Source: Demequina sp. NBRC 110057
GTDB taxonomy: Bacteria; Actinomycetota; Actinomycetes; Actinomycetales; Demequinaceae
Direction of reading: 5' to 3'
Length of the DNA: 64,000 bases
Assembly: GCF_002090175.1 (NCBI RefSeq)
Contig: NZ_BBRN01000006.1
Span: 372,001-436,000 of the forward strand
Position 1 is the stretch's first letter. Each line of letters opens with the position of its first letter. The notes beneath the pieces are model-generated. The model was not told where the DNA came from, made no database searches, and saw nothing but the letters and a program-made list of their open reading frames with translations. Of the stretch, positions 12,668 to 52,992 are shown in pieces. The position numbers and the translations under genes were made by a program.

Positions 12668-12709
12668 GCGGCCGTCGCCGCTTCAGGGGCGGCGGCCGCG
12701 TCGCGTTTT
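12668..12709 (+). terminator. Rho-independent terminator after aztD
   Basis: A GC-rich stem (12668-12681 with 12686-12699, 11 of 14 pairs) is followed by GTCGCGTTTT. It lies 17 bp after the aztD stop. Its stem overlaps the last codons of the convergent epimerase gene. Confidence 0.7.
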
Positions 12710-16556: not shown

Positions 16557-18916
16557 CGGCTCGCCTCCGTGGCGGTGAGGGTGACGCGGCCGATGCGGTG
16601 GATGGCGAGCGAGCGCACGCTCACCCCATCGGGCACCGGCCGCATGCTCGGGTCCACCCAGACGCCGGTGGCGTCGCTCCAGGGGAGCAGCTCGAGCGTC
16701 ACGTCCTCGCCGTCAGTGACGTCGATGTCCCACGCCCTGCCGTGCCAGAAGTGGTCGCTCACCACCTCGCCGGCCCTGAGGGCGCGGCCCACGTCGCCGG
16801 TCCACTCGACGCGCAGGAGGGCGCGGTCGGCCCCGGCGACCGCGCCCGCGGGGATCGCGACGTCGACGCTCGCCGCCCCGGAGAAGTCGGTGGGGGCGCT
16901 GAGGCGGTCCATGGGTCCGCCGCGCGTGGGGGAGGGTGCGTCGGCCTCGAGGGGACCGGGCGTCGCAAGCGGCACCCGTCCGGCGGCCGAGGTGACCGTG
17001 ACACGGGCCCAGCCGGTCGCATCGGCGCCCTGGAGGCCGATCTCGCCGCCGTCGACCTCCAGGTCCGCGGGGGCCGGCAGGATCGCGAGGTGCGCCTCGG
17101 GCTCGGTGGGGTGGATCACGAGGTGGCCGGCCGATGCCGTGACGGGCTGGTCGGCGAGGATCAGGCGCTCGCGGCCCAGCACGTCCAGGACGTAGGCGCG
17201 GTTGGCGGTGGCCTCGTCGAGGATGAGCAGCCGCGTGCCGTCGAGGTCGACGATGGTGGTGTCGGAGGGGTCGGCGGTGAGGCGCACGACGGTGTGGCCG
17301 CCGTGGGTGGTGACGGTCGCCGGGCCGGTGACGGCCGCCGGGCCCGCGACGACGAGCTCGACCGGGACGCCGTCGGTGGCGGTGAGGACCACCAGCTCGT
17401 CGCCGTCGTCGAGCGTGAGCCTCGTGAGGACCTGTGCCGTCGCGGAGCGCAGGGTGTGGCGAGCGAGCGGCAGGTTCACGGGCCAGGCGACGTGGACGCC
17501 CGCCGGCAGCGTCACGGGAGCGGTGGGGAGCGTCACGGTGTCTCCCGCGAGCGTCACCGCGAACTGCACGTCGTCGACGGCCGGCAGCGGCCGGCGAGCC
17601 GGCTGGTAGGTGGTGGCGAAGACGTAGCCGCGTGATGCATCGGCCCTCACCGCCCAGCGCAGGGCATCGTCGCCGCCCACGGTGCTCGTCATGGCGGCGA
17701 GGGCGGCGCCGTCGGTGTGGAGCCACAGGTGTTGGCGGCGCAGCAGGTGGTGGTGGAGGCGCACCTGGCCGTGCTCGCCGAGCGGCGCGTGGAAGTCGTA
17801 CGTGCGCGTGGGGACGTCGTTGGGGTAGCCGGTGGCGTGGCTTTCTTGCTGGGTGCCCGCGGCGCCGATGCGCTGCGTGCCTCCCGAGTACATGTAGTAG
17901 CCCTGCCACACGGAGCCCGATCCGATCTTGGCGTGGGCGAGCGCCGCGACGTCGCGCTCGGTGACGAGCGGCCTGCGGTGGTAGGCGACGTGCATGCCGC
18001 CGCCCAGCTCGCAGGTGGCGAAGGGGACGGCGGAGTCGTCCTTCAGGGTGACGGCGCCCTCGGCGACGCTCACGCCGTCGAGGGCCTCGCGCAGGTCGGC
18101 ACCCACCGTGAGGTCGTCCCGCACCGTCGAGTAGTGGAAGTGGACGGGAGCGAATGACGGCCAGTCCGTCTGTTCGTCCTCCCAGAAGCCGTCGACGTAG
18201 GCGCTGTAGACGGGTAGCAGCGTGTCCGGGACCTGCGCGCCTCCCCAGCCGGTCGCGGTCCACAGGGGGACGGCGAGCCCCGCCTCCTCGGCGAGGCGGC
18301 GCAGCGTGGCGAGGTGCTCGGGCTGGTCGTAGAGCTCGTTGTCCATCTGCGCGGCGATGATCGGCCCGCCCTCGGCGTGGGTCAGGCCCCGCAGCTGCGC
18401 GACGATCTCGCCGTAGAGGCGGCGCACCAGGTCGAGGTAGCCGGGGTCGTCGGTGCGCGGGGTGACGGGGAGGGCGAGCAGCCAGTCGGGGAAGCCACCG
18501 TGGCGGGCCTCGCCGTGCGCCCACGGGCCCATGCGCACGACCACGTCGAGTCCGTGCTCGCCCGCTAGCTGCACGAACGCGCGCAGGTCGAGGTTGCCGT
18601 CCCAGCGGAAATCGCCGGCGCGGGGCTCGTGCGCCTGCCACAGGACATACGTCGCCACCGAGGTGAGGCCGCCTGCCTTGGCGTGGGCGAGAACGTCGTC
18701 CCAGCGCTCGCGGGGAAGGCGCGAGTAGTGGATCTCGCCCGTGATGGGGAACGCGGGGGCGCCGCCACGCTCCACGGAGCGGCTGGTGACCTCGATGCGG
18801 TCCGCGGTGCCGGCGGCCTCGCCCAGGGGTAGGTGGCCCCGGCGCGGAGCCTCTGGGGTGGCGAGCGTGATGGTGTGCGCCGGCATCGTCGCCGGCCGTG
18901 ATGCGTCCGTGGCCAT
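16553..18916 (-). CDS. Beta-galactosidase, GH35
   Basis: A 787-aa protein whose N-terminal TIM barrel is of GH35 type: GEIHYSRLPRERWDD, GPWAHGEARHGGFPDWL, the acid/base Glu194 in AAQMDNELYD and the nucleophile Glu303 in CELGGGMH. The C-terminal half (about 400-787) is made of beta domains. The acid/base segment DNELYD departs from the usual NEYG, so this is a divergent branch. No signal peptide. ATG 18916 is used; ATG 18886 is possible. First gene of the three-gene operon down to 12683; the divergent AraC regulator probably controls it. The substrate is likely a beta-galactoside, but specificity is uncertain. Confidence 0.83.
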   Translation of the reverse strand: MATDASRPATMPAHTITLATPEAPRRGHLPLGEAAGTADRIEVTSRSVERGGAPAFPITGEIHYSRLPRERWDDVLAHAKAGGLTSVATYVLWQAHEPRAGDFRWDGNLDLRAFVQLAGEHGLDVVVRMGPWAHGEARHGGFPDWLLALPVTPRTDDPGYLDLVRRLYGEIVAQLRGLTHAEGGPIIAAQMDNELYDQPEHLATLRRLAEEAGLAVPLWTATGWGGAQVPDTLLPVYSAYVDGFWEDEQTDWPSFAPVHFHYSTVRDDLTVGADLREALDGVSVAEGAVTLKDDSAVPFATCELGGGMHVAYHRRPLVTERDVAALAHAKIGSGSVWQGYYMYSGGTQRIGAAGTQQESHATGYPNDVPTRTYDFHAPLGEHGQVRLHHHLLRRQHLWLHTDGAALAAMTSTVGGDDALRWAVRADASRGYVFATTYQPARRPLPAVDDVQFAVTLAGDTVTLPTAPVTLPAGVHVAWPVNLPLARHTLRSATAQVLTRLTLDDGDELVVLTATDGVPVELVVAGPAAVTGPATVTTHGGHTVVRLTADPSDTTIVDLDGTRLLILDEATANRAYVLDVLGRERLILADQPVTASAGHLVIHPTEPEAHLAILPAPADLEVDGGEIGLQGADATGWARVTVTSAAGRVPLATPGPLEADAPSPTRGGPMDRLSAPTDFSGAASVDVAIPAGAVAGADRALLRVEWTGDVGRALRAGEVVSDHFWHGRAWDIDVTDGEDVTLELLPWSDATGVWVDPSMRPVPDGVSVRSLAIHRIGRVTLTATEASR

Positions 18917-26083: not shown

Positions 26084-26124
26084 ATTCAAGCCCTGTGCGA
26101 CATCGATTGTCAATCGGTTGCCAA
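26084..26124 (-). promoter_or_regulatory. uxaC promoter with overlapping LacI-type operator
   Basis: On the minus strand the -35 box TTGACA (26108-26113) and -10 TTGAAT (26084-26089) are 18 bp apart. The 18-bp operator TTGTCAATCGGTTGCCAA at 26107-26124 (7 of 9 symmetric pairs, central CG) covers the -35 box. Four similar sites lie at 27335, 32011, 33771 and 52902. Confidence 0.7.
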
Positions 26125-26177
26125 CCAGACGCTCGGGCACGCGCGGTGATGCGTGGCGCTCGGCGACCGCCCGTGCG

Positions 26178-27215
26178 TCAGTTCTGGCGCACGGTGCCCG
26201 TGGAGCCTCTCACGACGAGTTCAGTGGTGACATCCGCCGTCCCATCCACTGGCTCGCCGACCCCGATGGTGCGGAGGAGGTGGCGTACTGCATCGGAACC
26301 GAGGCCGCGCAGATCACTGCGAACGGTGGTGAGGGGCGGGGTGATGAGTTCGGCGGCGAAGATGTCGTCAAAACCCGCGACTGAGAGGTCATCGGGAACG
26401 CGCAACCCTCGACGAGTCGCCTCCTGGATGAGGCCGATGGCGACGAGGTCGTTGTATGCGACGACTGCCGTCGCGCCCGAGGCCTCCGCGCGCTCGAACG
26501 CGGCAGCGCCGCCGGCGAGGGTGGGCGAGTGTGGGCCGATCTCGAAGATCGCGATGCCGTGCGACCGGGCCGCGTGGAGCAGCGCTTCCCAGCGGCGTGA
26601 GCTCATCCAGGACCTACTGGGCCCGCCAAGGAACGCGATGGATCGGTGCCCCAACTCGTCGAGATGATCCACGAGCTGTTGTGCACCGTGTGAGGGGTCA
26701 CTCGCCAGGTGGGGAATGCCTTTTACCTCGCGGTTTAGGGTGATCAACGGCTTGCGTTCAGCGAGCCTGACAATTTCCTTATCGGGCAGTCGTGTGGTGC
26801 CGAGAATGACTCCATCGACCGCAGGGGTGATGCGCTCGACAGTGTTGGCCTCGACGGCGCCCGATTCTTGAGACTCCGAGATCACAAGGGTGTAGCCCGC
26901 GATGCTCGCCGCCCGTTCCGCGCCACGGATGGTCTCGAACACGACGGGGTTGGTGATGTCCGCGACGATGAGTGCGATCGTGTTTGTTCGCCCCGTGGGG
27001 AGTGCGCGTGCCAGCGGATTGATCTGGAAATGCAACTCATCCGCCGCCGCACGGATGCGCGCCTCGGTCTTCGCGCTCACTCGACCCGGTTGGTTGAGGG
27101 CACGCGAGACGGTGGAGGGATTCACACCCGCGGCTTCCGCGATGTCGTAGATGGTGGCGGCGCCAGACTTCCGGCGGCGGCCAGAAGAGGCAACGCTCTC
27201 CGCGGCATCAGTCAT
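26178..27215 (-). CDS. LacI-family regulator of the uronate regulon
   Basis: A 345-aa repressor. The HTH is TIYDIAEAAGVNPSTVSRAL (about residues 21-40) with the hinge INPLARALPTGRT, followed by the sugar-binding domain ending GFDDIFAAELITPPLTTVR. ATG 27215 has a strong GGAGGA upstream. It lies between the uxaC and eda operons, each of which carries a related 18-bp operator. It is therefore the natural candidate for all five sites in the window, with glucuronate, fructuronate or a pathway product as inducer. The assignment is inference from position and site similarity. Confidence 0.9.
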   Translation of the reverse strand: MTDAAESVASSGRRRKSGAATIYDIAEAAGVNPSTVSRALNQPGRVSAKTEARIRAAADELHFQINPLARALPTGRTNTIALIVADITNPVVFETIRGAERAASIAGYTLVISESQESGAVEANTVERITPAVDGVILGTTRLPDKEIVRLAERKPLITLNREVKGIPHLASDPSHGAQQLVDHLDELGHRSIAFLGGPSRSWMSSRRWEALLHAARSHGIAIFEIGPHSPTLAGGAAAFERAEASGATAVVAYNDLVAIGLIQEATRRGLRVPDDLSVAGFDDIFAAELITPPLTTVRSDLRGLGSDAVRHLLRTIGVGEPVDGTADVTTELVVRGSTGTVRQN

Positions 27216-27334
27216 GAGTCCTCCTGTCAGCCCGAATGGTAGCCGGTGCGTCTTTGCGACCGCCTACCTGTCCATCCGTGAACGGACCATCACGGCGTGA
27301 TTAATGCGCCGTGGTGTTGTACGGTTCCACCCTA

Positions 27335-27352
27335 ATGGCATTCGGTTGCCAA
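27335..27352. promoter_or_regulatory. LacI-type operator before eda
   Basis: ATGGCATTCGGTTGCCAA matches the other four sites most closely in its right half (GGTTGCCAA); 6 of 9 pairs are symmetric. It lies about 100 bp before eda. The promoter boxes here are unclear, so it may act as a roadblock. Confidence 0.6.
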
Positions 27353-27449
27353 ACGAGCATCGACGCTTGCTGGCATCGGTGGTCGGTGCGGCGACGGCAT
27401 GAGATCAACAGCGATGCGGCTGTTGGGGACGCTGATGAGGAGCGAAAGC

Positions 27450-30462: not shown

Positions 30463-31932
30463 ATGGACACGCCCATCATCGCCGGCTTTCACCCGGACCC
30501 TTCCGTCTGTCGCGTAGGTGAGTGGTTTTACCTCGCCAACTCATCGTTCGAATACGTGCCCGGCGTGCCCATCCACCGATCTCGAGACCTCGTATCCTGG
30601 GAACTCGTGGGACACGCCCTGCCGGACGCGGCGTCAGTCAACGCGCCCCTCGGTGCGGAGGGCGCAAGCAAGGGGATCTTTGCTCCGACCCTGCGCCATC
30701 ACGATGGCCGGTTCTGGCTGACCACCACCAGTATCCGTTCGGTGATGAACGGCCAAATGATCACCTGGGCCGACGACCCTGCTGGGCCGTGGTCGTCTCC
30801 GGTCTTCGTTCCCGGTACCCCGGGCATCGATCCCGACCTGACGTGGGACGAGGACGGAACGTGCTACCTCACGTACAAGGGATTCATGCCCTCGGGCATC
30901 CACCAGGTGGCAATCGATCCGCTCACCGGGACCGTCCTTGGCGACGACACAGTGATCTGGGAGGGGAGCGGACTCGCTGAGTGCGAGGGACCACACGTCT
31001 TTCGGCGCGACCGATGGTGGTACTTGCTCGTTGCCGAAGGCGGCACGCACACGGGGCATGGAATCTCGATAGCGCGTTCGCTCGAGATTGGCGGCCCGTA
31101 CGAATCTTGCCCGCAGACCCCGTTCTATACGCATCGCTCGACCAATGCGCCCGTGCAGGCAACGGGTCACGGCGACATGGTGGAACTCGCCGATGGTCGC
31201 TGGGCGATGGTGCACCTCGGCATTCGCCAGCGGGGCTCCTTCCCGCGCTTCCACGTGCTGGGACGAGAGACCTTCGCGGTAGGCATCGACTGGGTCGACG
31301 GATGGCCAGTGGTCGACGAAGAGAGCTTTCTGGCGCCCCGGGTCGACGGTTCGTATACCGATGAATTCGACCAAGGAGGCCTCGACCCGCACTGGGTCGC
31401 CCCGGGCGAGGCTCCGCGTGACCTCGCAACGCTTCCCCACGACGGCGGGGTGCGCCTGGGTGAAGGCCGTGCGGCCGACGCGGGCGAGCAGGGCCGTGCA
31501 CTCTGCCGCCGAGTGACCGATCACGACTGGGAAGCCGTGGTGGAGTTGGGTGAAGGGGACCTGTGCGTCTCTGTCCGATTGGACGCCAGCCACTGGTACG
31601 GCATCGAGCGCGTGGGGTCCACCATCCGTGCCCGAGCCGTCAGCGCGCCACTCGACCAGATCTTCGCCGGTGTGGAGTCGCTCCCGGGCGACCGTGTGGT
31701 GCTGAACGCACGCACGGCCGGGAACTCGGGTTTTGGGCTTGGGCCCGACACCGTCACGCTGGCGGTGGATCGCCAGGGGGAGCGCCTAGTCCTTGCCGAG
31801 CTCGACGGTCGTCACCTCTCGACGGAGGTCGCCGGGGGCTTTACCGGTCGCATGCTCGCGCTTGAAGCGCTCGGCGGGTCAGCAACATTTGCGAAGGTGA
31901 CGTACACGTCGATCGCTGCTCCCGCGGCTTAG
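30463..31932 (+). CDS. Glycoside hydrolase GH43 (xylosidase/arabinofuranosidase-like)
   Basis: A 489-aa two-domain GH43. The N-terminal five-bladed propeller (about residues 1-300) has the base Asp12 in AGFHPDPS, the pKa-modulating Asp in GIDPDLTWD and the acid Glu in AECEGPHVF. The C-terminal beta-sandwich (about 310-489, beginning TDEFDQGGLDPHW) is the GH43 C2 domain of beta-xylosidases. No signal peptide. ATG 30463 is chosen with GGAAGG 8 nt upstream; GTG 30454 overlaps uxuA. It probably removes xylose or arabinose from imported oligosaccharides. Confidence 0.88.
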   Translation: MDTPIIAGFHPDPSVCRVGEWFYLANSSFEYVPGVPIHRSRDLVSWELVGHALPDAASVNAPLGAEGASKGIFAPTLRHHDGRFWLTTTSIRSVMNGQMITWADDPAGPWSSPVFVPGTPGIDPDLTWDEDGTCYLTYKGFMPSGIHQVAIDPLTGTVLGDDTVIWEGSGLAECEGPHVFRRDRWWYLLVAEGGTHTGHGISIARSLEIGGPYESCPQTPFYTHRSTNAPVQATGHGDMVELADGRWAMVHLGIRQRGSFPRFHVLGRETFAVGIDWVDGWPVVDEESFLAPRVDGSYTDEFDQGGLDPHWVAPGEAPRDLATLPHDGGVRLGEGRAADAGEQGRALCRRVTDHDWEAVVELGEGDLCVSVRLDASHWYGIERVGSTIRARAVSAPLDQIFAGVESLPGDRVVLNARTAGNSGFGLGPDTVTLAVDRQGERLVLAELDGRHLSTEVAGGFTGRMLALEALGGSATFAKVTYTSIAAPAA

Positions 31933-32010
31933 GTTCTACTCCCGAGCGACCCGCACTCCCGGGGGGACCGCGCCTCGACACGAGTCGATGACAACGATTC
32001 GGTCACGCTC

Positions 32011-32028
32011 TAGGCAACCGGTTGCTTA
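32011..32028. promoter_or_regulatory. LacI-type operator in the promoter of the family-5 binding protein
   Basis: TAGGCAACCGGTTGCTTA is the most symmetric of the five sites (8 of 9 pairs, central CCGG). Its right half contains TTGCTT (32022-32027), which is 18 bp from TTCACT (32046-32051) and could be the -35 box. A TetR-type site follows after 3 bp. Confidence 0.7.
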
Positions 32029-32031
32029 AAG

Positions 32032-32051
32032 AGTAACCACCGTGGTTCACT
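32032..32051. promoter_or_regulatory. TetR-type operator, second copy
   Basis: AGTAACCACCGTGGTTCACT is nearly the 19-bp palindrome found between the rhamnosidase and TetR genes at 50824-50842, with one inserted C in the right arm and one change in the centre. It lies in the spacer and -10 region of the promoter for the binding-protein gene. The lead-in also matches: TTGCTTAAAG here, TTGTTTAAAG at the rhamnosidase. Confidence 0.7.
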
Positions 32052-32125
32052 AAGGGTGCCAGAGAAGGACGGGCGTGACGCCCCCGCACCTCTCGGACCT
32101 CTGCATTTACGACAAAGGAGTTCAC

Positions 32126-33715
32126 ATGCAGCACATGACGCCACGTGCGCCGTCGACGCGGATGCGCGCCGGTGCGGCCGTAGCCATCGGCGCGCTTGTC
32201 GCCCTGGCCGGTTGTTCGAGCAACGAGGGCGCTGCCGAGCCGTCCGGATCCTCCGAGGAGACCACGGCCGCCGTCGCGGGGCCCACCACGCTCCAGATCT
32301 CTACGAACCGCGCGCCGTCCCCTTTTGACCCTGTGCAGATGCAGCGCGGAACTGACGCTCTTATCTGGGGCTCGATCTACGACACGATGTTCATCATCGG
32401 TCCGGATGGGGAGCTCGTGCCCCACCTCGCCGAGTCGTACGAGTACTCGGACGACGGGCTGCAGCTCACGCTCCATCTTCGCGAGGGCCTGACGTTCTCC
32501 AATGGCGGTCCCGCCACGGCCGAGGACTACGCCGCGACGCTGCTGTATGTGCGTGACAACCCGGGCTCCAATCAGACGCTCACCGACCGCATCGAGAGCG
32601 TCGAGGCCGTCGATGAGACGACCGTCGAGATCACCTTCAGCCAGCCCGACCCTGGCTTCCTGTTCGATCTGACGAGCAGCATTGGGATCATCGCTGACCC
32701 GGAGCTGATGACGGAAGAGTCGTACGGCCTTGAGCCCATCGGTGCGGGCCCGTACGTCCTCGACACCGACGCATCGCTCGCCGGCACCGAGTATGTCCTC
32801 ACTAAGCGCGACGACTATTGGAACGCCGACGCTTACCCGTTCGAAGAAATCACGGTGAGCGTGATCGCCGATGCGACCGCCATCGAGAACGCGCTGCGTG
32901 CGGGTGAGCTTGACATCGCCAACGTGTCGTCCCAGGTAGCGCCGCAGTTTGAGGCAGACGCGAACTTCACCCTTCAGTCGTTGCAGGCGAGCTCGTCGAT
33001 CTTCATCGATATCGCGGATCGAGACGGAACTGTAGCTCCGGCCCTCGCAGACGTCCGGGTCCGTCAGGCCATCAATATGGCCTTCGACCGTGAGGGTATG
33101 GTCACCAACCTGCTGGGCGGCACCGGCATCCCCGCGCACCAGATGTTCTTCCCCTCGACCTCCGGGTACGACCCCGAGCTCGAGGGCTACTATCCCTACG
33201 ACCTCGAGGGCGCGAAGGCGCTCATGGAGGAGGCGGGGTACGGAGACGGCTTCACCATCGACATGCCGTCCCTCGTGTATACGACGACATTCGAGCCAGC
33301 GGTGACTCAGGCGCTGGCTGACATTGGGATCACGGTGAACTGGACCTCGGTTCCGCCGCAGGACACCGTGTCGGCGCTGCTGTCGGGCGAGTACCCCGTG
33401 GTCATGTGGTTCGCCTCGACCCTGCCCTCGCCGAATGAAGTCGATGACTACTACGGCACCACAGCGTTGCTCAACCCGTTCCGCACGACGGACCCCGAGC
33501 TCGACCCGCTTCTCGCGGAGGCCGACGCCGTCGCTGACGCTTCGACGGCTGGGGACCTGTACCAAGAGATCAACCGCACGGCGACGGAGCTCGCCTGGTA
33601 TGCCCCGCTGTTCTTCACTGGGCAGCAGTTCGCCTCGCGCACCGGATACGAGTACATCGGTACCGAGAGCCAGCAGTCGGTTCGCATCGAGAGTTACGGC
33701 GTCAGCGCAGGCTGA
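32126..33715 (+). CDS. ABC transporter substrate-binding lipoprotein, family 5
   Basis: A 529-aa lipoprotein with a signal peptide and lipobox ALAGC (about residues 20-32), a Ser/Glu-rich linker and a family-5 (DppA/OppA-like) fold: PHLAESYEYSDDGLQLTLHLREG in two pieces near 95-120, and VRVRQAINMAFDREGMV near 310. Family-5 systems carry peptides but in actinobacteria also oligosaccharides; this context points to uronate- or rhamnose-containing glycosides. ATG 32126 has a strong AAAGGAG at 32114-32120. The gene has its own dual-operator promoter and is followed by a strong hairpin, so it is transcribed separately from the permeases. Confidence 0.9.
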   Translation: MQHMTPRAPSTRMRAGAAVAIGALVALAGCSSNEGAAEPSGSSEETTAAVAGPTTLQISTNRAPSPFDPVQMQRGTDALIWGSIYDTMFIIGPDGELVPHLAESYEYSDDGLQLTLHLREGLTFSNGGPATAEDYAATLLYVRDNPGSNQTLTDRIESVEAVDETTVEITFSQPDPGFLFDLTSSIGIIADPELMTEESYGLEPIGAGPYVLDTDASLAGTEYVLTKRDDYWNADAYPFEEITVSVIADATAIENALRAGELDIANVSSQVAPQFEADANFTLQSLQASSSIFIDIADRDGTVAPALADVRVRQAINMAFDREGMVTNLLGGTGIPAHQMFFPSTSGYDPELEGYYPYDLEGAKALMEEAGYGDGFTIDMPSLVYTTTFEPAVTQALADIGITVNWTSVPPQDTVSALLSGEYPVVMWFASTLPSPNEVDDYYGTTALLNPFRTTDPELDPLLAEADAVADASTAGDLYQEINRTATELAWYAPLFFTGQQFASRTGYEYIGTESQQSVRIESYGVSAG

Positions 33716-33720
33716 CCTCG

Positions 33721-33752
33721 GCCGGGCCGTCGGGACATCCCGACGGCCCGGC
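33721..33752 (+). terminator. Strong hairpin after the binding-protein gene
   Basis: A perfect 14-bp stem (GCCGGGCCGTCGGG with its complement) and a 4-nt loop begin 5 bp after the stop codon. There is no T-tract, but the stem is strong enough to be a terminator or an mRNA end protector. Confidence 0.75.
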
Positions 33753-33770
33753 GCACGTCGGCCTCGCGGG

Positions 33771-33788
33771 TTGGCAATCGGTTGTCAA
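33771..33788. promoter_or_regulatory. LacI-type operator before the permease operon
   Basis: TTGGCAATCGGTTGTCAA (7 of 9 symmetric pairs, central CG). The right half holds TTGTCA (33782-33787), a good -35 box; CATCCT at 33806-33811 is 18 bp further on. It gives the permease/ATPase genes a promoter independent of the binding protein. Confidence 0.65.
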
Positions 33789-33922
33789 ATATGTTTGAAT
33801 GGCCGCATCCTCGCCCAGTACTGCCGCGACGATGCGGCAGAGGATATTCGGCGAAACCCTGTCGCAGGGCCCTCGTCGCACTGGCGCATACGTAGGAAGA
33901 AAGTCAAAGCAAGGGTGGAGCA

Positions 33923-34864
33923 ATGCTGCTTTTCACATTGAGACGGGTGCTCTTCGGCATCGTCCTTTTCGTCATCGTCTCGTTTACCACCATGTGGCTG
34001 CTCAGCTTCTCGTTCGATAGCATCATCGGCAGCAAGCTGGGTGCGGCCGCAAATGTCGATTCGATCGCCGCGATGAAGGCGGATCTTGGCCTCGACAGGC
34101 CGGTGCCGGTGCTCTACGTGGAGTGGCTGAACAACCTGGTCCATGGCGATCTCGGTTCGTCGTTCTTCACCGGTCAGCCTGTGATCGAGGCGCTACCAAG
34201 CCGACTCGCCGTCACGTTGTCGATCGTGGGGCCGGCGCTCATCATTTCAGCGATCGTGGCGATTGTGCTCGGGACGCTCGCTGCTACGCGAGGTGGCGCC
34301 GTCGACAAGGCGGCCCAGGGGCTCATGCTGACGGGGTACCTGATTCCCAACCTGCTCATCGCGATCGTCCTCGTGGTGGTCTTTGCGGTCAATCTCCAGT
34401 GGCTCCCCGCGACGGGGTACACGCCACTGAGTGAGGACCCCGGTAAGTGGCTTCAGTCCATCACCTTGCCGGTCATTGCTATGGCGTTCGGCGGCGCGGC
34501 AAACATGGCGAACCAGGTGCGCGGCACGATGATCGACGAGCTTCGCAAGGACTACATCCGTACGTTGCGCACGCGCGGCGTGCCCATGCGCGCCATCATC
34601 ATTCGCCATGCGCTACGCAACGCCGCCGGACCCGCGCTGACCGTCTTTGGTTTGACCTTCATCACTCTTTTCGGCGCTGCGCTCTTTATTGAGCAGGTCT
34701 TCGCCCTGCCCGGCTTCGGGACGTACAGCTTCAACGTTGCCCTCCAGGGTGACTTTCCCGTGCTCATGGGCCTCACTGCGTGGGGAGTGGGACTGACCAT
34801 CGGCGTGAACCTCTTGATCGACGTAGCCAATGGATGGCTGAACCCGAAGGCGAGGCAGTACTAA
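33923..34864 (+). CDS. ABC transporter permease (DppB type)
   Basis: A 313-aa inner-membrane permease with about six membrane segments, the first being GIVLFVIVSFTTMWLLSF. The family-typical pieces are DLGLDRPVPVLYVEWLNNLV-HGDLGSSF near residues 55-80, the coupling loop ELRKDYIRTLRTRGVP and EQVFALPGFG near the end. ATG 33923 has GGTGGAG upstream. Its stop and the start of the next gene share one base (TAATG). It pairs with the fused permease-ATPase next to it to form the channel for the family-5 importer. Confidence 0.93.
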   Translation: MLLFTLRRVLFGIVLFVIVSFTTMWLLSFSFDSIIGSKLGAAANVDSIAAMKADLGLDRPVPVLYVEWLNNLVHGDLGSSFFTGQPVIEALPSRLAVTLSIVGPALIISAIVAIVLGTLAATRGGAVDKAAQGLMLTGYLIPNLLIAIVLVVVFAVNLQWLPATGYTPLSEDPGKWLQSITLPVIAMAFGGAANMANQVRGTMIDELRKDYIRTLRTRGVPMRAIIIRHALRNAAGPALTVFGLTFITLFGAALFIEQVFALPGFGTYSFNVALQGDFPVLMGLTAWGVGLTIGVNLLIDVANGWLNPKARQY

Positions 34865-36663
34865 TGGCTACCGAGATCACCTCCGACGTGGTGACATCCG
34901 CACTCCCGGCGTCGGCGGAAGAAAACGAAGTGCGCCGCAATGCCTTTCAGCGGCTGCTTCGGGACCCTCAGGCCGTCATCACGGGAAGCATCATCCTCGT
35001 CTTCATCGTGCTGGGGCTTCTCGCCAACGTGATCCCGGCCCATGGGCCCAACGAGGTGGTGCTGTCGGCGACCAACGCGCCTCCCGGTACCGAGGGCTAC
35101 CCCCTCGGCGCGGATGCCACAGGTCGCGACATCCTCTCGAGGCTTCTCCACTCGATCAATACGGCCATGGTCGCCGGCATCATCGGTGCTGGCATCGCGC
35201 TCATCATCGGCATGACCCTCGGCCTCATTGGTGGCTACTTCGATCGCTTTCGGACGCCCGTCGAGTGGGGTGCCACGATTATTCAGACCTTCCCCGGTCT
35301 GCTCCTGTTGATCGTTCTGATGCCGTTGACGGGCGGTGATTATCGCTGGACGATGGCCATCTTCGGCGTGTTGCTCACCCCTGGCATTTACCGCATCGTC
35401 CGCAACCAGACGGTGGGGGTGAGCCGAGAGCTGTACGTCGACGCGGCGCGGGTGTCCGGCGTGACGGATTTCCGCATCCTTGGACGCCACATCCTTTCCG
35501 TGGTGCGCGGGCCCGTCATCGTCGCCACGACGTTTCTCTTCGGTTCAGCCATCGGTACGCAGGCGGGACTCGCGTTTCTCGGTGTCGGTTCCAAGGAGAT
35601 CCCCAGTTTCGGATCGATGATCAGCGACGGCTTCCGCAACCTCTACATCGCACCGTCCCAGTACATCTGGCCCGCTGTCGCCCTTGGTGTGCTGAACGGC
35701 GCGTTCGTCCTGTTCGGAAATGCGCTGCGAGACACGTTCGAGGGAGCGAGGCCGAAGGCCGAGAAGATCGAGGCCACCGCTGTGGTCGAGGGCTTTGCGG
35801 CCGACGACGTCGCCGATTCTGGGCAGCTCGTGCAGGTGCGTGACCTTGGCATCGCGTATCGCTCGCCGGGTGGTCACCTCAACGAGGTGGTCCGTGGTGT
35901 GGATCTCGAGATTCGCATGGGCGAGACGCTTGGACTTGTGGGCGAATCCGGCTCAGGTAAGACTCAAACTGCCTTTGGTGTGCTGGGAGTCCTTCCCGCC
36001 GAGGCCATCGTGACCAGGGGGTCAGTGCGTCTCGAGGGCCGCGAGCTTCTCGGCATGTCTCAGGCCGACCTGAATCGTTTGCGCGGCTCCTCCATCGCGT
36101 ACATCCCGCAGGAGCCGATGGCGAACCTGGACCCCGTTTATACGGTGGGGCGGCAGTTGGTCGAGGGGATCATGGCCTCCACGCAGGTGTCGAAGGCCGC
36201 TGCGAAGGAGCGGGCACTCGAGTTGTTGGGTCGTGTAGGGATTCCCGACCCGGCGCGCACGTTCGGTGCGTATCCTCACGAGATTTCCGGCGGCATGGCT
36301 CAACGTGTGCTGATTGCGGGAGCCATCGCTCCCAAGCCCAAGCTCTTGATTGCCGACGAGCCGACCACCGCGTTGGACGTCACAGTCCAGGCAGACATTC
36401 TCGATTTGCTGCGCGACCTGCAGGCTGAGATGGGAATGGGCATCATCCTCGTCACCCACAACTTCGGCGTGGTGGCGGACATCTGTGATCGGCTCGCGGT
36501 CATGCAGCAGGGCGAGATCGTCGAGTCCGGAACGACGGTGGAGGTCTTCGCGAATCCGCAGCACTCGTACACGAAGATGCTGCTGAACTCGATCCTCGAC
36601 GAAGAGACGATTCGTACCGATCCGCCGATGGCGGCGGCGGGTGCGCGAGAGGGGGCACGATGA
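34864..36663 (+). CDS. Fused ABC permease (DppC type) and ATPase (DppD type)
   Basis: A 599-aa fusion. The N-terminal part (about residues 1-300) is a DppC-like permease: YPLGADATGRDILSRLLHS, coupling loop ELYVDAARVSGVTDFRILGR, and AGLAFLGVGSKEIPSFGSMI. The C-terminal part (about 320-590) is a full ATPase: Walker A GESGSGKT, Q-loop PQEPMANLDP, signature SGGMAQR and Walker B LLIADEPTTALDV, with the switch His in VTHNFG. The two are usually separate proteins. ATG 34864 follows the previous stop directly. Energises uptake together with the next ATPase. Confidence 0.94.
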   Translation: MATEITSDVVTSALPASAEENEVRRNAFQRLLRDPQAVITGSIILVFIVLGLLANVIPAHGPNEVVLSATNAPPGTEGYPLGADATGRDILSRLLHSINTAMVAGIIGAGIALIIGMTLGLIGGYFDRFRTPVEWGATIIQTFPGLLLLIVLMPLTGGDYRWTMAIFGVLLTPGIYRIVRNQTVGVSRELYVDAARVSGVTDFRILGRHILSVVRGPVIVATTFLFGSAIGTQAGLAFLGVGSKEIPSFGSMISDGFRNLYIAPSQYIWPAVALGVLNGAFVLFGNALRDTFEGARPKAEKIEATAVVEGFAADDVADSGQLVQVRDLGIAYRSPGGHLNEVVRGVDLEIRMGETLGLVGESGSGKTQTAFGVLGVLPAEAIVTRGSVRLEGRELLGMSQADLNRLRGSSIAYIPQEPMANLDPVYTVGRQLVEGIMASTQVSKAAAKERALELLGRVGIPDPARTFGAYPHEISGGMAQRVLIAGAIAPKPKLLIADEPTTALDVTVQADILDLLRDLQAEMGMGIILVTHNFGVVADICDRLAVMQQGEIVESGTTVEVFANPQHSYTKMLLNSILDEETIRTDPPMAAAGAREGAR

Positions 36664-37541
36664 ACACGCCGTTGCTGGAAGCCAAGGGCCTGAAGGTGGC
36701 ATACCCCGTCAAGGGCTTTCGCAAGCCCCCCGTGGAGATCGTGCACGGCGTCGATTTCACTATTCGCCGGGGTGAGACGCTCGGCATCGTCGGTGAGTCA
36801 GGGTCGGGGAAGACCACCATCGGACGAGCCATTCTCGGGCTAGCGCCGATTTCTGGTGGGACTTTAACGTACGACGGCCACGACCTCGCGAGCATGAATG
36901 CCCAGCAGCGGAGGAAGCTGTCGCGTGAGATCCAGGTCGTCTTCCAGGACCCGTACAGCTCACTAAATCCGTCCCTGACGATTGGCGCCACGCTTGCCGA
37001 GCCGTTGATTGTCCAGGGTTGGGACAAGGCGAAGGCGACGCGGCGAGTGCTCGACCTCCTCGACCGCGTGGGCCTCCCGAAGAACGCCGCCCAACGTCTC
37101 CCGAGAGAGTTCTCGGGAGGTCAGCGTCAACGCGTGGCTATCGCCCGCGCCTTGGCCCCCGGTCCCAGGCTGATTGTGTGTGACGAACCGGTATCAGCGC
37201 TCGACCTGTCGACGCAGGCGACCGTCATGGACCTCTTCATCGAGATTCAGCGTGAGACGGGAGTGGCGTACCTGTTTGTCTCGCACGACCTCGCGGTGGT
37301 TCGCCACATTAGCCATCGCGTCGGCGTGGTGTACGCCGGTGACATCGTCGAGCAGGGCCGCACGGGTGACGTCACGGTGACGCCCCAGCACCCCTATACC
37401 CAACGCCTGCTCCTCGCCGCGCCGATTGCGGACCCGGGCCTCCAAGCGCAGCGGCGTACCGAGCGTCGCGAGTTGCGAGCAGCTCAAGAGCACCTCAGCG
37501 CGACGGAGGCATCCTCTGCGTCCCGACCTGACGCCGCGTAA
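36660..37541 (+). CDS. ABC transporter ATP-binding protein (DppF type)
   Basis: A 293-aa ATPase: Walker A GESGSGKT (about residue 43), Q-loop FQDPYSSLNPS, signature SGGQRQR, Walker B LIVCDEPVSALDL and the H-loop VSHDLAV. The C-terminal tail with PQHPYTQRLLLAAP is the usual oligopeptide-type end. ATG 36660 overlaps the fusion gene by 4 bp. It forms the second half of the heterodimeric ATPase of the family-5 importer. Confidence 0.95.
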   Translation: MNTPLLEAKGLKVAYPVKGFRKPPVEIVHGVDFTIRRGETLGIVGESGSGKTTIGRAILGLAPISGGTLTYDGHDLASMNAQQRRKLSREIQVVFQDPYSSLNPSLTIGATLAEPLIVQGWDKAKATRRVLDLLDRVGLPKNAAQRLPREFSGGQRQRVAIARALAPGPRLIVCDEPVSALDLSTQATVMDLFIEIQRETGVAYLFVSHDLAVVRHISHRVGVVYAGDIVEQGRTGDVTVTPQHPYTQRLLLAAPIADPGLQAQRRTERRELRAAQEHLSATEASSASRPDAA

Positions 37542-37598: not shown

Positions 37599-38819
37599 AT
37601 GACTACATTTCCCGACGGATTTCTCTGGGGTGCCGCGACCGCCGGGCACCAGATCGAGGGCAACAACGTCAACAGCGACTGGTGGGCTCGCGAGCAGATG
37701 ATGCCAGGCATGGAGCTGTCGGGTGACGCCGTCGACAGCTACCACCGCTATCGCGAAGACATCGCGCTGCTTGCCGAGGCGGGCCTCACCTCGTACCGCT
37801 TCAGCCTCGAGTGGTCCCGCATCGAACCGGTGCGCGGATACTTCTCGAAGGCGGAACTCGCGCACTATCGCCGCATGATCGACTTCTGCCTCGACAACGG
37901 CGTCACCCCCGTGGTGACCCTGCAGCACTTCACCACCCCTCAGTGGTTCGCAGCGCTCGGGGGCTGGGACGGCCCCGAGGCCGAGGAACTCTTCTGCGCC
38001 TACGTGGAGCAGGCGTGCACCATCCTTGACGGCGTCGAGTGGGTCGTCACCATGAACGAGCCGAATATGCAGGCGGCGATCATGACGATGATGCGCCACC
38101 TTGGCGCTGGGGGCGGCGAGTGGACCAGCCCCACCGTCGAGGCGGAAGGTGACGAGGACAAGAAGCAGTCTCACAGCGAGTTCCTTACCTACGCGGACCC
38201 CGAGATCGGCAAGTTGTTCGGGCGCATCCACCACGCCGCGCGCGCGATCGTGCGCGAGCGCACGGGTGCCAAGGTGGGATGGACCATCGCTGCCGGCGCG
38301 CTCACTGCTGCGCCAGGCGGCGAGGAGAAGCTCCTCCAGATCCGTTACGGCAAGGAGGATGTGTACTGGGAGGGCAGTCGCGGCGACGACTTCGTGGGAG
38401 TGCAGGCTTACTCGAGCCAGGAGGTCGACGCGAACGGTCTCGTGCCACACCCGCCGCATCCCGACAACACGCTCGTCGGCACGGCGTTCCGTCCTGACTC
38501 GCTCGCGATGGCCGTGCGCCACGCCTGGGAGGTGAGCGAGCACACGCCGATCATGATCACCGAGAACGGGATCGCCACCGCGGACGACTCGCAGCGCGTG
38601 CGCTACACCCGCGAAGCACTCGAGGGACTGCACGCGACGATAGAGGACGGGATCGACGTGCGTGGCTATCTCCACTGGAGCCTTCTCGACAATTTCGAGT
38701 GGGGTCACTGGGAGCCCACCTTCGGCCTCATCGCGGTTGACCGCGAGACCTTCGAGCGCACCCCCAAGCCGAGCCTCGCGTGGCTGGGCCGGGTCGCCAA
38801 AGCAAACGCGCTCGCGTGA
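37599..38819 (+). CDS. Glycoside hydrolase GH1 (beta-glycosidase)
   Basis: A 406-aa GH1 TIM barrel, shorter than the usual 440-480 aa. Start FPDGFLWGAATAGHQIEGN is canonical; the acid/base Glu154 is in VTMNEPN and the nucleophile Glu322 in MITENG; the end LLDNFEWGHWEPTFGL is the aglycone-site signature. It removes beta-linked glucose, galactose, fucose or similar residues; the exact sugar cannot be told. No signal peptide. AAGGA precedes ATG 37599. A strong hairpin follows. Confidence 0.92.
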   Translation: MTTFPDGFLWGAATAGHQIEGNNVNSDWWAREQMMPGMELSGDAVDSYHRYREDIALLAEAGLTSYRFSLEWSRIEPVRGYFSKAELAHYRRMIDFCLDNGVTPVVTLQHFTTPQWFAALGGWDGPEAEELFCAYVEQACTILDGVEWVVTMNEPNMQAAIMTMMRHLGAGGGEWTSPTVEAEGDEDKKQSHSEFLTYADPEIGKLFGRIHHAARAIVRERTGAKVGWTIAAGALTAAPGGEEKLLQIRYGKEDVYWEGSRGDDFVGVQAYSSQEVDANGLVPHPPHPDNTLVGTAFRPDSLAMAVRHAWEVSEHTPIMITENGIATADDSQRVRYTREALEGLHATIEDGIDVRGYLHWSLLDNFEWGHWEPTFGLIAVDRETFERTPKPSLAWLGRVAKANALA

Positions 38820-38824
38820 TCCCC

Positions 38825-38853
38825 AGGGCGCCGGCCGTTGTGGCCGGCGCCCT
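38825..38853 (+). terminator. Hairpin after the GH1 gene
   Basis: A perfect 12-bp stem AGGGCGCCGGCC with its complement and a 5-nt loop starts 5 bp after the GH1 stop and ends 38 bp before the SDR start. No T-tract. Either a terminator or a processing/stabilising element within the operon. Confidence 0.65.
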
Positions 38854-38891
38854 GCCCCGATTTCCCCCTCACCCCGATTCCAGGAGTACCC

Positions 38892-39716
38892 GTGAACTTC
38901 GCCATGCCCGACGTCGTCGTGCCCCCACTGTCAGACCTCACCTCGCTGCGTGGCCGCGTCGCGGTGGTCACCGGGGGCGCGCAGGGAATCGGCCGGGCCA
39001 TCGCGAACCGCCTTGCCGAGGCGGGTGCGTCGGTCGCCATCGCAGACCGCAACGGTGACGCCGCGTCAAGCGTTGCGCGCGCGATCGCCGAGGAGCATGG
39101 TGTACGCGCGCACGGCATCGCTGTGGACGTCGCGGATGGTGAGTCCGTCGACCGCGCTGCCACGCTGGTGGTTTCCGAGCTCGGTGGCCTGGACGTGTGG
39201 GTTAACAACGCGGGCTTGTTCCCGTCTGCGCCACTCGATGTCATGTCCGACGATGACTGGGACAGGGTCTTCGCCGTGAACGTCCGCGGGGTTCGCAACG
39301 GCATTAAGGCTGCTGCCGCGCGGATGGGTGAGAGCGGCGGTGTCGTGGTGAACATCGCGTCGCTCGCCGCTTTCGAGGGGACGGCGCCGGGACTGTCCGC
39401 GTACGTGAGTTCGAAGCACGCGGTGCGTGGACTGACGCGTCAGGCGGCCATCGAGCTCGCGCCGCGCGGGATCCGTGTGCTCGGCGTGGCGCCCACGTTT
39501 GTCATGACCGAGGGCACCATGGCGGCCGGTGCTGCCACTATGCAGGCGGCACAAGCCGCGGGTGAAGGCGTGCCCTCCATGCCCGCGCCCGCCACCCTCA
39601 TCGGCCGGCAGGGAACCGCCGACGACATCGCGCGGGTCGCGCTCTTTTGTGCATCGAATCTCTCCGCGGTCATGACCGGAAGCACCCTTCTCGCCGACGC
39701 CGGAGCCACGGCATAG
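38892..39716 (+). CDS. Short-chain dehydrogenase/reductase
   Basis: A 274-aa classical SDR with the cofactor site TGGAQGIGRA (about residues 28-37), NNAG (about 107), the catalytic Ser in NIASLAAF and the YVSSK (Y-x-x-x-K) pair. Asp in IADRNGD after the second strand suggests NAD(H) rather than NADP(H). GTG 38892 has AGGAG 5 nt upstream. It lies between a GH1 and a beta-glucuronidase gene, so it probably oxidises or reduces a released sugar or aglycone. A sugar dehydrogenase (for example for L-rhamnose) is one possibility, without direct evidence. Confidence 0.87.
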   Translation: MNFAMPDVVVPPLSDLTSLRGRVAVVTGGAQGIGRAIANRLAEAGASVAIADRNGDAASSVARAIAEEHGVRAHGIAVDVADGESVDRAATLVVSELGGLDVWVNNAGLFPSAPLDVMSDDDWDRVFAVNVRGVRNGIKAAAARMGESGGVVVNIASLAAFEGTAPGLSAYVSSKHAVRGLTRQAAIELAPRGIRVLGVAPTFVMTEGTMAAGAATMQAAQAAGEGVPSMPAPATLIGRQGTADDIARVALFCASNLSAVMTGSTLLADAGATA

Positions 39717-39776: not shown

Positions 39777-41588
39777 ATGCTGAAGCCCAAGATGACGCCC
39801 ACCCGTGAGCTGGTGAGCCTGGACGGGACATGGCGGTTCGACCTTGACTCCAGACTTGGGCAGCGTCCGTGGGAGGCTCCCCTCGACACTTCGCTCGAGG
39901 CGGCGGTGCCGGCGAGCTACAACGACCTGTTCGTGGACGAGGAGATCCGCAACCACGTGGGTTGGGCCTATTACCAGCGCATGGTTCAGGTGCCGCGCGG
40001 CTGGGGCGCGGAGCGCATCTATCTTCGCTTCGATGCCGCGACCCACGCCGCGAAGGTATACGTAGACGACGTGTTCGTCGGAGAGCACGTGGGCGGCTAC
40101 ACGCCCTTCGCGATCGACGTCACCGACCATGTGGACGCCGGACAGCCATTCCGGCTCACCGTCGCCGTGTCAGGCGACCTCACCAACGAGACGATCCCCC
40201 CAGGCAAGATCGAGGTGGGAATGACCGGCAGGCAGAGCCAGACCTACTTCCACGACTTCTACAACTACGCGGGCCTCGCACGTTCGGTGTGGCTGTGCAC
40301 CACACCCCATGACCGCATCGAGGACGTGGTCGTCACGACGGACTACGAGGGGGCCGACGGGGCGGTGACCTATCGCGCGGACGTCGCCGGCTCCGGCTCC
40401 GGCGCCGTCCGCGTCAGCCTTGCCGATGCGGACGGTGCCGTGGTCGCGGAGGCGACTGGAGCATCGGGCGTCCTCAGTGTCACCGACGTGACCCTGTGGA
40501 AGCCGGGATCTGCCTACCTTTACGACCTGACCGTCGAGTTACTCGACGGCGACGCTGTCATCGACTCCTACACGCTTCCCGTTGGCGTGCGCACTGTGGA
40601 GGTGCGCGGGACCCAGTTCCTGATCAACGGAGAGCGGTTCTACTTCACGGGCTTTGGCAAGCACGAGGACACCCCCGTCCGCGGCAAGGGGCACGACGAC
40701 GCGTACATGGTGCACGACTTCCACCTCATGGACTGGATCGGCGCCAACTCGTTCCGCACCTCCCACTACCCGTATGCCGAGGAGGTGCTGGAGTTCGCCG
40801 ACCGCCACGGCATCGTCGTCATTGATGAGACAGCGGCGGTGGGTCTCAACATGGGAGTCGTCGGCGGCATGTCCGGTACGCCGCCGTTTCCCACTTTCTC
40901 CGAGCAGTACGCGAACGACATCACCCAGGCGGCGCACGCGCAACACATTCGCGAGCTGATCACTCGCGACCGCAACCACCCGTCGGTCGTGATGTGGTGC
41001 CTCGCCAACGAGCCTGCCTCGAACGAGGACGGCGCACGCGAGTACTTTGAGCCTCTCGTGACGCTGGCACGGGAGCTCGATCCGACCCGACCGATGGCCT
41101 ATGCGCTGGTGATGTTTGCGACCTTCGAGAACGACCAGTGCATAGACCTCTTCGACGTCGTGTGTATGAACAGGTATTACGGCTGGTATGTCGCATCCGG
41201 CGACCTCGCGACCGCAGAGATGTACCTGGCGGGGGACATCAAGGGGTGGATTGAGCGCACCGGCAAACCGATCATGATGACCGAGTACGGCGCAGACACG
41301 ATGGAGGGCCTCCATTCCGTACATACGCAGGTGTGGACCGAGGAGTACCAGCGGGACTACCTGGAGATGAACCACCGCGTCTTCGACCGGTTCCCCGAGT
41401 TCGTGGGCGAGCAGATCTGGAACTTCGCCGACTTCGCCACCACCAACGCCATTCACCGCGTCGGCGGAAACAAGAAGGGAGTCTTCACGCGTGACCGTCG
41501 CCCCAAGTCGGTCGCCTTCGACCTCCGCAAGCGCTGGACGGGTCTCGCGGGACGCAAGCCCGGCACCGACGCCTCAGGGCAGGGCTGA
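39777..41588 (+). CDS. uidA: Beta-glucuronidase, GH2
   Basis: A 603-aa enzyme, the same length as E. coli GUS, releasing D-glucuronate from beta-glucuronides. Order: sugar-binding jelly roll (about 1-180), Ig-like domain (180-275), TIM barrel (275-600). Acid/base Glu412 is in CLANEP, nucleophile Glu503 in MMTEYGAD, and NRYYGWY precedes it. Asn565 and Lys567 in GNKKG form the N-x-K motif that grips the uronate carboxylate. These numbers are one less than in E. coli. No signal peptide. GAAGGA precedes ATG 39777. The product feeds UxaC. Confidence 0.94.
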   Translation: MLKPKMTPTRELVSLDGTWRFDLDSRLGQRPWEAPLDTSLEAAVPASYNDLFVDEEIRNHVGWAYYQRMVQVPRGWGAERIYLRFDAATHAAKVYVDDVFVGEHVGGYTPFAIDVTDHVDAGQPFRLTVAVSGDLTNETIPPGKIEVGMTGRQSQTYFHDFYNYAGLARSVWLCTTPHDRIEDVVVTTDYEGADGAVTYRADVAGSGSGAVRVSLADADGAVVAEATGASGVLSVTDVTLWKPGSAYLYDLTVELLDGDAVIDSYTLPVGVRTVEVRGTQFLINGERFYFTGFGKHEDTPVRGKGHDDAYMVHDFHLMDWIGANSFRTSHYPYAEEVLEFADRHGIVVIDETAAVGLNMGVVGGMSGTPPFPTFSEQYANDITQAAHAQHIRELITRDRNHPSVVMWCLANEPASNEDGAREYFEPLVTLARELDPTRPMAYALVMFATFENDQCIDLFDVVCMNRYYGWYVASGDLATAEMYLAGDIKGWIERTGKPIMMTEYGADTMEGLHSVHTQVWTEEYQRDYLEMNHRVFDRFPEFVGEQIWNFADFATTNAIHRVGGNKKGVFTRDRRPKSVAFDLRKRWTGLAGRKPGTDASGQG

Positions 41589-44371: not shown

Positions 44372-44392
44372 GGTCAGCGGTCAGCGGTCAGC
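44372..44392. repeat. Three tandem copies of a 7-bp unit
   Basis: GGTCAGC is repeated three times without a gap. It lies between the GH43 stop and the AraC gene and crosses the AraC stop codon, so changes in copy number could alter the C-terminus SADR. Confidence 0.85.
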
Positions 44393-45649
44393 GGACTGCC
44401 GCGTCGTGGTGCGACGTTCGGGCAAGTCCGGTGCATGTGCGTGCGCTGAGCGGTAGGAGGTTGGCGTGACGCCGTGTACCTGGCGGAACACCTTCACGAA
44501 GTAGTTCGCGTCGTCGTAACCGACATACGCGGCGATGTCGCGAACGGTTCTCGAGGTGGTCGCGAGCAGCCGCGTCGCACGGTGAACGCGACGCTCCGCA
44601 ACGTACTTCGCGATGGTGGTGCCCGTGGCGTCCTTGAACCGTCGTGTGAGGGTTGAGGTCGACACGCCGATCCGTGCCGCTAGTGCGGTGGGGGACACCG
44701 GCTGACTGAGGTGGAGCTCGATCTCATCGAGAGCCCGCCTGACGATCGGCGGGTAGCCGGCCCGCTGGTGCCGGCGTACTGCGCGACTGAACGCGGAGAT
44801 CATCTGCGCGTTGAACTCGGCAGAACGGCGAGCATCGGCGGTGTGGCCAATCCGATGCAGGCGCTGGGCATACTCCTGCGAGATCGCGTCGATCGTGACT
44901 CCAGGTACCCCGCCGCGCTGCGCTGCCACACGCGCCATGATCCTCAGAATCGTGGTGCCGAGGTAGGGGGTAGTGAGATAGGTGATGGTCGAAGGGGTGC
45001 TCGACAGGCGCGCGAGGGTGTCCAGGGCCTCGTGTGTCGACCCGTCCGCGATTGCGTCCATGAAGCGCTGCTCGAGTCGGTATCTCTCCTCGACGACCTC
45101 GAGCGATGCCGACTGCCGCGCCTCGTCCGCGTCTGGGTCGAGGCGGCCACCCGCTGCCATGATCCGTTGAAGAGCTCCGATCGAGTCGCGTACGCCTGCA
45201 GCGCGGAGGGCGGCGGAAGCGCCGCGATGGGCATACTCCGCGTCGACGATCGCGTAGCGCGTCCGGTAGAGGCGGTACAGCGCGGCGTGTGATCGCGGCA
45301 GGGCATTCGCCCTCACCAGTTCGGGCACGGTTTCTGGGTAGATCGCCTCGTGCGTGTACGGACCGACGATCAGTACATGCGTTCCCCACCGTGCCAATGC
45401 CACCGCCATCCCCAGTGGCTCGCAGAGTTCGTGGATCACCTGTGTCGGCATATCCTCGATCGTTTGTCGCAGTACAGAAGCCGTCAAGGCGGGCTGGAGT
45501 TCGGGATCGAAACAGTGGTCGGCCTCGAACACGGTCAAGGTGGAGGCGAGGGCGGTCGTGATCTGCACGGAGCAGCCGAGGACCTCTTCAATCGCCTCAA
45601 TCGCGGCCCTGGCCGGGGCATCGTTGCCAGTTCGCCGTGAGCCGTGCAC
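44381..45649 (-). CDS. AraC-family regulator with large N-terminal domain
   Basis: A 422-aa regulator. The C-terminal double HTH is clear: SPTALAARIGVSTSTLTRRF and then RTVRDIAAYVGYDDANYFVKVF (about residues 318-395). The 300-aa N-terminal part, with VLGCSVQITTALASTLTVF at the start, resembles the PocR-like sensor region of YesN/AraC regulators and is predicted cytoplasmic. GTG 45649 is supported by GGGGAG 5 nt upstream. It is divergent from a GH2 gene and is its probable regulator. Confidence 0.88.
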   Translation of the reverse strand: MHGSRRTGNDAPARAAIEAIEEVLGCSVQITTALASTLTVFEADHCFDPELQPALTASVLRQTIEDMPTQVIHELCEPLGMAVALARWGTHVLIVGPYTHEAIYPETVPELVRANALPRSHAALYRLYRTRYAIVDAEYAHRGASAALRAAGVRDSIGALQRIMAAGGRLDPDADEARQSASLEVVEERYRLEQRFMDAIADGSTHEALDTLARLSSTPSTITYLTTPYLGTTILRIMARVAAQRGGVPGVTIDAISQEYAQRLHRIGHTADARRSAEFNAQMISAFSRAVRRHQRAGYPPIVRRALDEIELHLSQPVSPTALAARIGVSTSTLTRRFKDATGTTIAKYVAERRVHRATRLLATTSRTVRDIAAYVGYDDANYFVKVFRQVHGVTPTSYRSAHAHAPDLPERRTTTRQSADR

Positions 45650-45672: not shown

Positions 45673-45701
45673 AGTTCTGCAGAATTCATTCTAGTTCTGC
45701 A
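45673..45701. promoter_or_regulatory. Direct-repeat operator, AraC type
   Basis: AGTTCTGCA occurs at 45673-45681 and again at 45693-45701, 20 bp apart and in the same orientation. This is about two helical turns, the spacing of tandem half-sites for AraC monomers. It lies between the divergent AraC and GH2 genes. TTCTGCAGAA at 45675-45684 is also a perfect palindrome. Confidence 0.6.
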
Positions 45702-50821: not shown

Positions 50822-50850
50822 ACAGTAACCAACGTGGTTACTTTAAACAA
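50822..50850 (-). promoter_or_regulatory. Rhamnosidase promoter with TetR-type operator
   Basis: On the minus strand, -35 TTGTTT (50845-50850) and -10 TACTGT (50822-50827) are 17 bp apart. The 19-bp palindrome AGTAACCA-ACG-TGGTTACT (50824-50842, perfect 8-bp arms) fills the spacer and covers most of the -10 box. This geometry fits simple repression. The TetR gene is transcribed the other way. Confidence 0.78.
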
Positions 50851-52878: not shown

Positions 52879-52919
52879 ATTTGAGCATCGGATCGCACTA
52901 TTTGTCAACCGGTTGCCAA
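52879..52919 (-). promoter_or_regulatory. MFS promoter with overlapping LacI-type operator
   Basis: On the minus strand, -35 TTGACA (52903-52908) is 18 bp from TCAAAT (52879-52884). The operator TTGTCAACCGGTTGCCAA at 52902-52919 (8 of 9 symmetric pairs) covers the -35 box. The layout matches the uxaC promoter. Confidence 0.72.
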
Positions 52920-52992
52920 ACAAGGCGGGTGACCTGTCCTCTGACGTCGGCCAGGCGCGTGATCGACGGGAGTGCCCGTCAGGGACCAATCC

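Follow-up and report, generated by a model that had tools for sequence, protein, structure and literature searches.

A candidate promoter for LacI- and TetR-family repressors in a glucuronate gene cluster of Demequina sp. NBRC 110057

The uxuAB promoter of E. coli is under the control of two repressors, UxuR and ExuR, which are related proteins. The promoter considered here, that of a solute-binding lipoprotein gene (SBP) in a window of 64,000 nucleotides (positions 372,001 to 436,000 of contig NZ_BBRN01000006.1), is similar in having two predicted local repressors on one promoter, but here these belong to unrelated families, and sister species differ in which operators they carry. LacI-family proteins govern local sugar regulons, including those of the uronate regulators UxuR, KdgR, ExuR and UxaR, and in a survey of the family more than one site was present upstream of about 20% of regulated operons (PMC4052901). 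The window shares with these regulons an even palindrome with a central CG and a local glucuronate gene cluster; however, the second operator at one of its promoters would belong to an unrelated TetR-family protein and not to the same LacI protein. Rhamnose and rhamnoside regulons also have local regulators of rhamnosidases and oligosaccharide carriers, drawn from the AraC, DeoR and LacI families, and the actinobacterial LacI-type RhaR regulon includes the ramA/rhmA rhamnosidases (PMC3870299), whereas the predicted rhamnosidase regulator of the window is a TetR-family protein with the operator GTAACCANNNTGGTTAC. This protein resembles BetI-type TetR repressors in its domains (PF00440 and PF13977) and in the short palindrome by its own gene and a divergent target, yet it falls far under the BetI cut-off (64 vs 201 bits) and its neighbours are glycoside, not choline, genes. 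In the open-licence literature we found no account of GH78 being repressed by a TetR protein through this operator, and open-licence papers on saponins and glycoalkaloids yielded no TetR regulator. Our reading of the sequences is that the SBP promoter is probably held by two unrelated repressors, the LacI-family protein encoded at 26178 acting at the -35 element and the TetR-family protein encoded at 50913 acting in the spacer.

The glucuronate cluster and its LacI-type operators

The genes of the cluster specify uronate catabolism (UxaC, UxuA, KDPG aldolase, a PfkB kinase and a beta-glucuronidase) together with glycosidases. Its relevant features are listed below; the sisters are two species, G008 and G019, that retain the same cluster.

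26106–26125, no strand: LacI-type operator of uxaC (glucuronate isomerase); 17/19, kept in sisters
26178–27215, minus strand: LacI-family protein, predicted repressor of the glucuronate cluster (PF00356/PF13377); DNA-binding region shared with sisters
27334–27353, no strand: LacI-type operator of the KDPG aldolase-kinase-UxuA-GH43 operon; 17/19, kept in sisters
32126–33715, plus strand: family-5 solute-binding lipoprotein (SBP; PF00496), predicted target of both repressors
33771–33789, plus strand: LacI-type operator of a separate dppB promoter, without a TetR site; 18/19, kept in sisters
33923–37541, plus strand: ABC transporter comprising DppB, a fused DppC-DppD permease-ATPase and DppF (fusion and DppF by Pfam domains)
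37599–39716, plus strand: GH1 glycosidase and SDR; most relatives have homologs in a tetR-MFS-GH78-GH1-SDR locus
39777–41588, plus strand: GH2 beta-glucuronidase (NF007538, above its curated cut-off)
48086–50743, minus strand: GH78 alpha-L-rhamnosidase, predicted TetR target (PF17389 and others)
52901–52920, no strand: LacI-type operator of the MFS carrier gene (51520–52824, minus strand); 17/19, kept in sisters

LacI-type sites, i.e. even palindromes with a central CG, occur at several promoters of the cluster. The motif TTGGCAATCGGTTGCCAAA is matched at five places in the window, with no further match at 14/19 or better. Counted by strand, there were eight hits of at least 15/19, compared with at most one per random 64 kb, all of them preceding cluster genes and conserved in the sisters. 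This enrichment belongs to the longer motif inside the cluster only, as the 12-mer at one mismatch was not enriched genome-wide over its control. From the clustering of these sites we infer that the LacI-family protein encoded at 26178 is their binder.

The dppB gene (33923–34864) was named from its context and from 85% identity to the sister cluster gene. A single frame of 598 aa (34867–36660, plus strand) encodes both the DppC-type permease (PF00528 at 115–291) and the DppD-type ATPase (PF00005 at 343–501), a fusion present in both sister species. Between SBP and the dppB promoter lies a GC-rich hairpin without a T-run (33726–33750), which may set the ratio of SBP to permease transcripts. 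Attempts at assignment did not place the SDR, for which fructuronate reductase was a guess.

The SBP promoter and the likely owner of its TetR-type site

Five features bear on the two predicted operators at the SBP promoter.

32011–32029, plus strand: LacI-type operator TAGGCAACCGGTTGCTTAA, over the likely SBP -35; 15/19 to the cluster LacI motif
32022–32051, plus strand: likely SBP core promoter, -35 TTGCTT (32022), N18, -10 TTCACT (32046)
32032–32051, plus strand: predicted TetR operator AGTAACCACCGTGGTTCACT in the SBP -35/-10 spacer, with an extra C in the right arm
50824–50842, no strand: predicted TetR operator AGTAACCAACGTGGTTACT, between GH78 and tetR, in the GH78 spacer (TTGTTT-N17-TACTGT, minus strand)
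50913–51518, plus strand: TetR-family repressor (PF00440 and PF13977); orthologs share the operator

The SBP promoter, GCAACCGGTTGCTTAAAGAGTAACCACCGTGGTTCACTAAGGG, precedes a gene starting at 32126. As the sequence-only reading had described, a LacI-type palindrome (TAGGCAACCGGTTGCTTA, 32011–32028, 8/9 pairs matched) is followed after a 3-bp gap by AGTAACCACCGTGGTTCACT, which nearly repeats the perfect palindrome AGTAACCA-ACG-TGGTTACT between GH78 and tetR, about 18 kb away. The 32032 site is this palindrome with one additional C in its right arm (GGTT-C-ACT), so that the left arm and core are perfect while the right outer arm is displaced by one base and full symmetry is lost. The extra C preserves a -10-like TTCACT that is also present in both sister species. 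That both TetR-type sites lie in a -35/-10 spacer was borne out, but the TTGyTTAAAG context said to precede both is displaced by 2 bp: at GH78 the site extends over the AG of TTGTTTAAAG, and TACTGT at N17 is the likely -10, compared with TTCACT at N18 for SBP. Placement of the SBP core promoter is likely from the equal spacing and the TTCACT in both sisters, which align with the window without gaps; a crude consensus scan of 31850–33950 for promoters and terminators returned nothing. The two predicted operators, with centres about 21 bp apart, overlap this one inferred core promoter, a credible dual site for LacI and TetR.

The TetR-type site is rare. Pattern searches, as opposed to matrix scans, of the 2.73-Mb genome placed exact GTAACCANNGTGGTT at two positions only, 32032–32047 and within 50824–50842. 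The site is not common at unrelated promoters, so the sequence-only reading withstood one of the tests that it named for its own refutation. At two mismatches the pattern gave 27 matches genome-wide and its reversed control also 27; with no excess at this level, weaker TetR sites cannot be called. No match to GTAACCANNNTGGTT was present in the 33 other genomes of the same genus in the order sample.

The palindrome is very probably the operator of the 50913 TetR protein, because all 24 TetR orthologs examined (53–62% identity; from Arthrobacter and relatives, Microbacterium, Agromyces, Streptomyces and G040 of the same genus) have GTAACC-N5-GGTTAC or a close variant of it directly in front of the tetR gene, many of them carrying two copies about 29 bp apart. 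The exact palindrome was present in 15 of the 16 whole genomes of relatives searched, G422 having a variant that the exact pattern misses. It was confined there to tetR loci, of which G421 has two, save for a single site in G414 with an odd core. A matrix built from 40 sites of relatives, with no window sequence included, ranked 50825 first in the window (28.8) and 32033 second (15.7, or 20.6 when the extra C is skipped), both above the best score among 40 random 64-kb sequences (12.5). The score of the 32032 site is nevertheless below those of most relatives' sites and its outer right arm is broken, so TetR may bind it weakly.

With a palindrome beside every examined ortholog and a DNA-binding region (of the type RASLRDIA..A..THAA.LRH[FY]) that is nearly invariant among palindrome owners, with a few single changes, the 50913 protein is the likely owner of both palindromes. 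It is very improbable that another regulator, e.g. a TetR paralog, owns both instead: the genome does contain at least 11 weaker TetR-family matches, but the palindrome accompanies this tetR gene in each of the orthologs examined, whereas its three nearest paralogs differ in their recognition helices and are not preceded by any perfect palindrome with 7-bp arms. The sequence-only reading had TetR repressing both genes; ownership of the two sites by the 50913 protein is a part that gained support, repression being predicted.

Operators in sister species and in other actinobacteria

The comparison with sister species covers two genomes, G008 and G019, that have the cluster and in which no TetR ortholog was found at E<=1e-25. 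Their LacI DNA-binding region is nearly the same as that of the window, and LacI-type sites occur in both at each of the five equivalent positions, including an orthologous operator at that of SBP. The SBP core promoter aligns gaplessly between sisters and window, with the same -10-like TTCACT and N18 spacing. In the sisters, however, this promoter is GGCAATCGGTTGC-GCAACCGATTGCC, a 26-bp inverted repeat that puts a second LacI-type operator into the spacer taken up in the window by the TetR operator, although the alignment shows the TetR operator coinciding only in part with the second LacI core. GH78 differs correspondingly: in the sisters it directly follows the MFS gene and has a LacI-type operator at its promoter, whereas in the window the two genes are separated by tetR, and a TetR operator but no LacI-type site is present at the GH78 promoter. 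With this exchange at SBP and at GH78, the TetR operator is present or absent together with tetR.

The inverted repeat of the sisters, GGCAATCGGTTGCGCAACCGATTGCC, is perfect (G019, L114, about 12680–12705; G008, L116, about 17802–17827) and is made up of two LacI-type operators that overlap, their centres being 11 bp apart.

These comparisons also bear on the reading in which SBP is controlled by LacI alone, 32032 being a TetR site that arose by chance or is decaying and does nothing. The broken right arm and lower score of 32032 fit such a reading, as do the SBP promoters of the more distant G043 and G031, which have a LacI-type operator alone, but within the core promoter of a gene linked by function there is a perfect 15-bp core that has only one other copy in 2.73 Mb, and in TetR-less sisters a LacI-type operator fills the same spacer; we consider the reading improbable. 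We regard the SBP promoter as very likely a target of both the LacI and the TetR repressors.

A tree of GH78 joins the window, G040, G008 and G019 (100/100), within which the window, G040 and the G008-G019 pair form an unresolved fork. All remaining rows of the tree have tetR beside GH78, a bias to be expected of rows fetched through tetR. An ancestral TetR that was lost in the sisters is plausible; alternatively, it was possibly gained in the window lineage.

In most relatives tetR is divergent from MFS-GH78-GH1-SDR, whereas GH1 and SDR of the window lie instead downstream of SBP-dppBCDF. Homologs of GH78, GH1 and SDR, and sometimes of GH43, GH2 or lacI, adjoin tetR elsewhere, and GH1 in most of these loci is 76–93% identical to that of the window (63% in one Streptomyces). 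At the MFS promoter, LacI-type sites adjoin the TetR operator in a set of four related Microbacterium loci, in G237 and in M. ureisolvens; the last encodes, about 5 kb from the locus, a LacI protein of nearly identical DNA-binding region. Among the 23 loci fetched through tetR there were no further LacI-type hits of at least 15/19 except two more in the G237 cluster; in those loci the TetR operator, judged by eye, takes up the -35/-10 spacer of about 17 bp between TTGNNN and TACTNT or a similar element. Counted by hand, the pairing of LacI and TetR sites occurs in at least three groups (two of Microbacterium and G237), and a TetR site at an SBP promoter was found in no other genome. The pairing is not confined to this genome. 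In Microbacterium sp. C7(2022), two tetR-MFS-GH78-GH1 loci (L152 and L153) each have TetR operators of their own.

Tentatively, and with slightly less than even confidence, we suggest that in glycoside clusters of actinobacteria two local repressors from unrelated families have repeatedly come to act at one regulatory slot, orthologous core promoters swapping TetR and LacI operators while the -35 and -10 elements stay in place. If so, a lineage could switch a transporter gene between control by LacI only and control by LacI and TetR together, and the rhamnosidase TetR would represent an undescribed group of glycoside-responsive repressors, for which an operator and targets can now be proposed beside MFS-GH78 genes in several genera. 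The SBP promoter offers a natural, testable case of the gain or loss of a second repressor with core elements fixed, with two sister species for comparison.

Proposed control logic

Our current working hypothesis is that the LacI-family protein sits over the SBP -35 and the TetR-family protein in the adjoining spacer, TetR also repressing GH78 and probably its own gene. Either bound repressor should block RNA polymerase at SBP, so that full transcription would need both released, i.e. an AND gate on two inducers. Gene content suggests a rhamnoside as the inducer of TetR and a uronate or its catabolite as that of LacI; the purpose may be uptake of a plant glycoside containing rhamnose and glucuronate.

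The AND logic would, however, be limited to the binding protein. The GH78 promoter has a TetR operator only, and release of TetR should suffice there; the dpp genes, uxaC, the KDPG-aldolase operon and MFS would need LacI released. The membrane and ATPase parts of the transporter, with GH1, SDR and the beta-glucuronidase, are predicted to depend on a LacI-only promoter that is kept in the sisters, and the MFS promoter is likewise LacI-only. The original proposal that uptake opens only when both signals are present is therefore not supported as it stands, and its strict form is weakened.

A softer alternative is that both proteins bind and TetR merely tunes SBP, a weak site, adjacent binding and read-through yielding a graded effect. 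The lower matrix score of the TetR site at SBP and the LacI-only promoters of dppB and MFS are in keeping with this, and the crude scan found no terminator between GH43 and SBP, so that read-through from the KDPG-aldolase operon is a possible leak softening the gate. Both operators nevertheless overlap core promoter elements, a position that normally gives strong repression by either protein, and we consider mere tuning rather unlikely. Repression of SBP by both proteins is the reading that we prefer.

An AraC-family gene (44381–45649, minus strand) lies divergent from a GH2 gene, with the imperfect inverted repeat GCAGAATTCATTCTAGTTCTGC between them (45679–45700), and is a possible third local regulator of the cluster.
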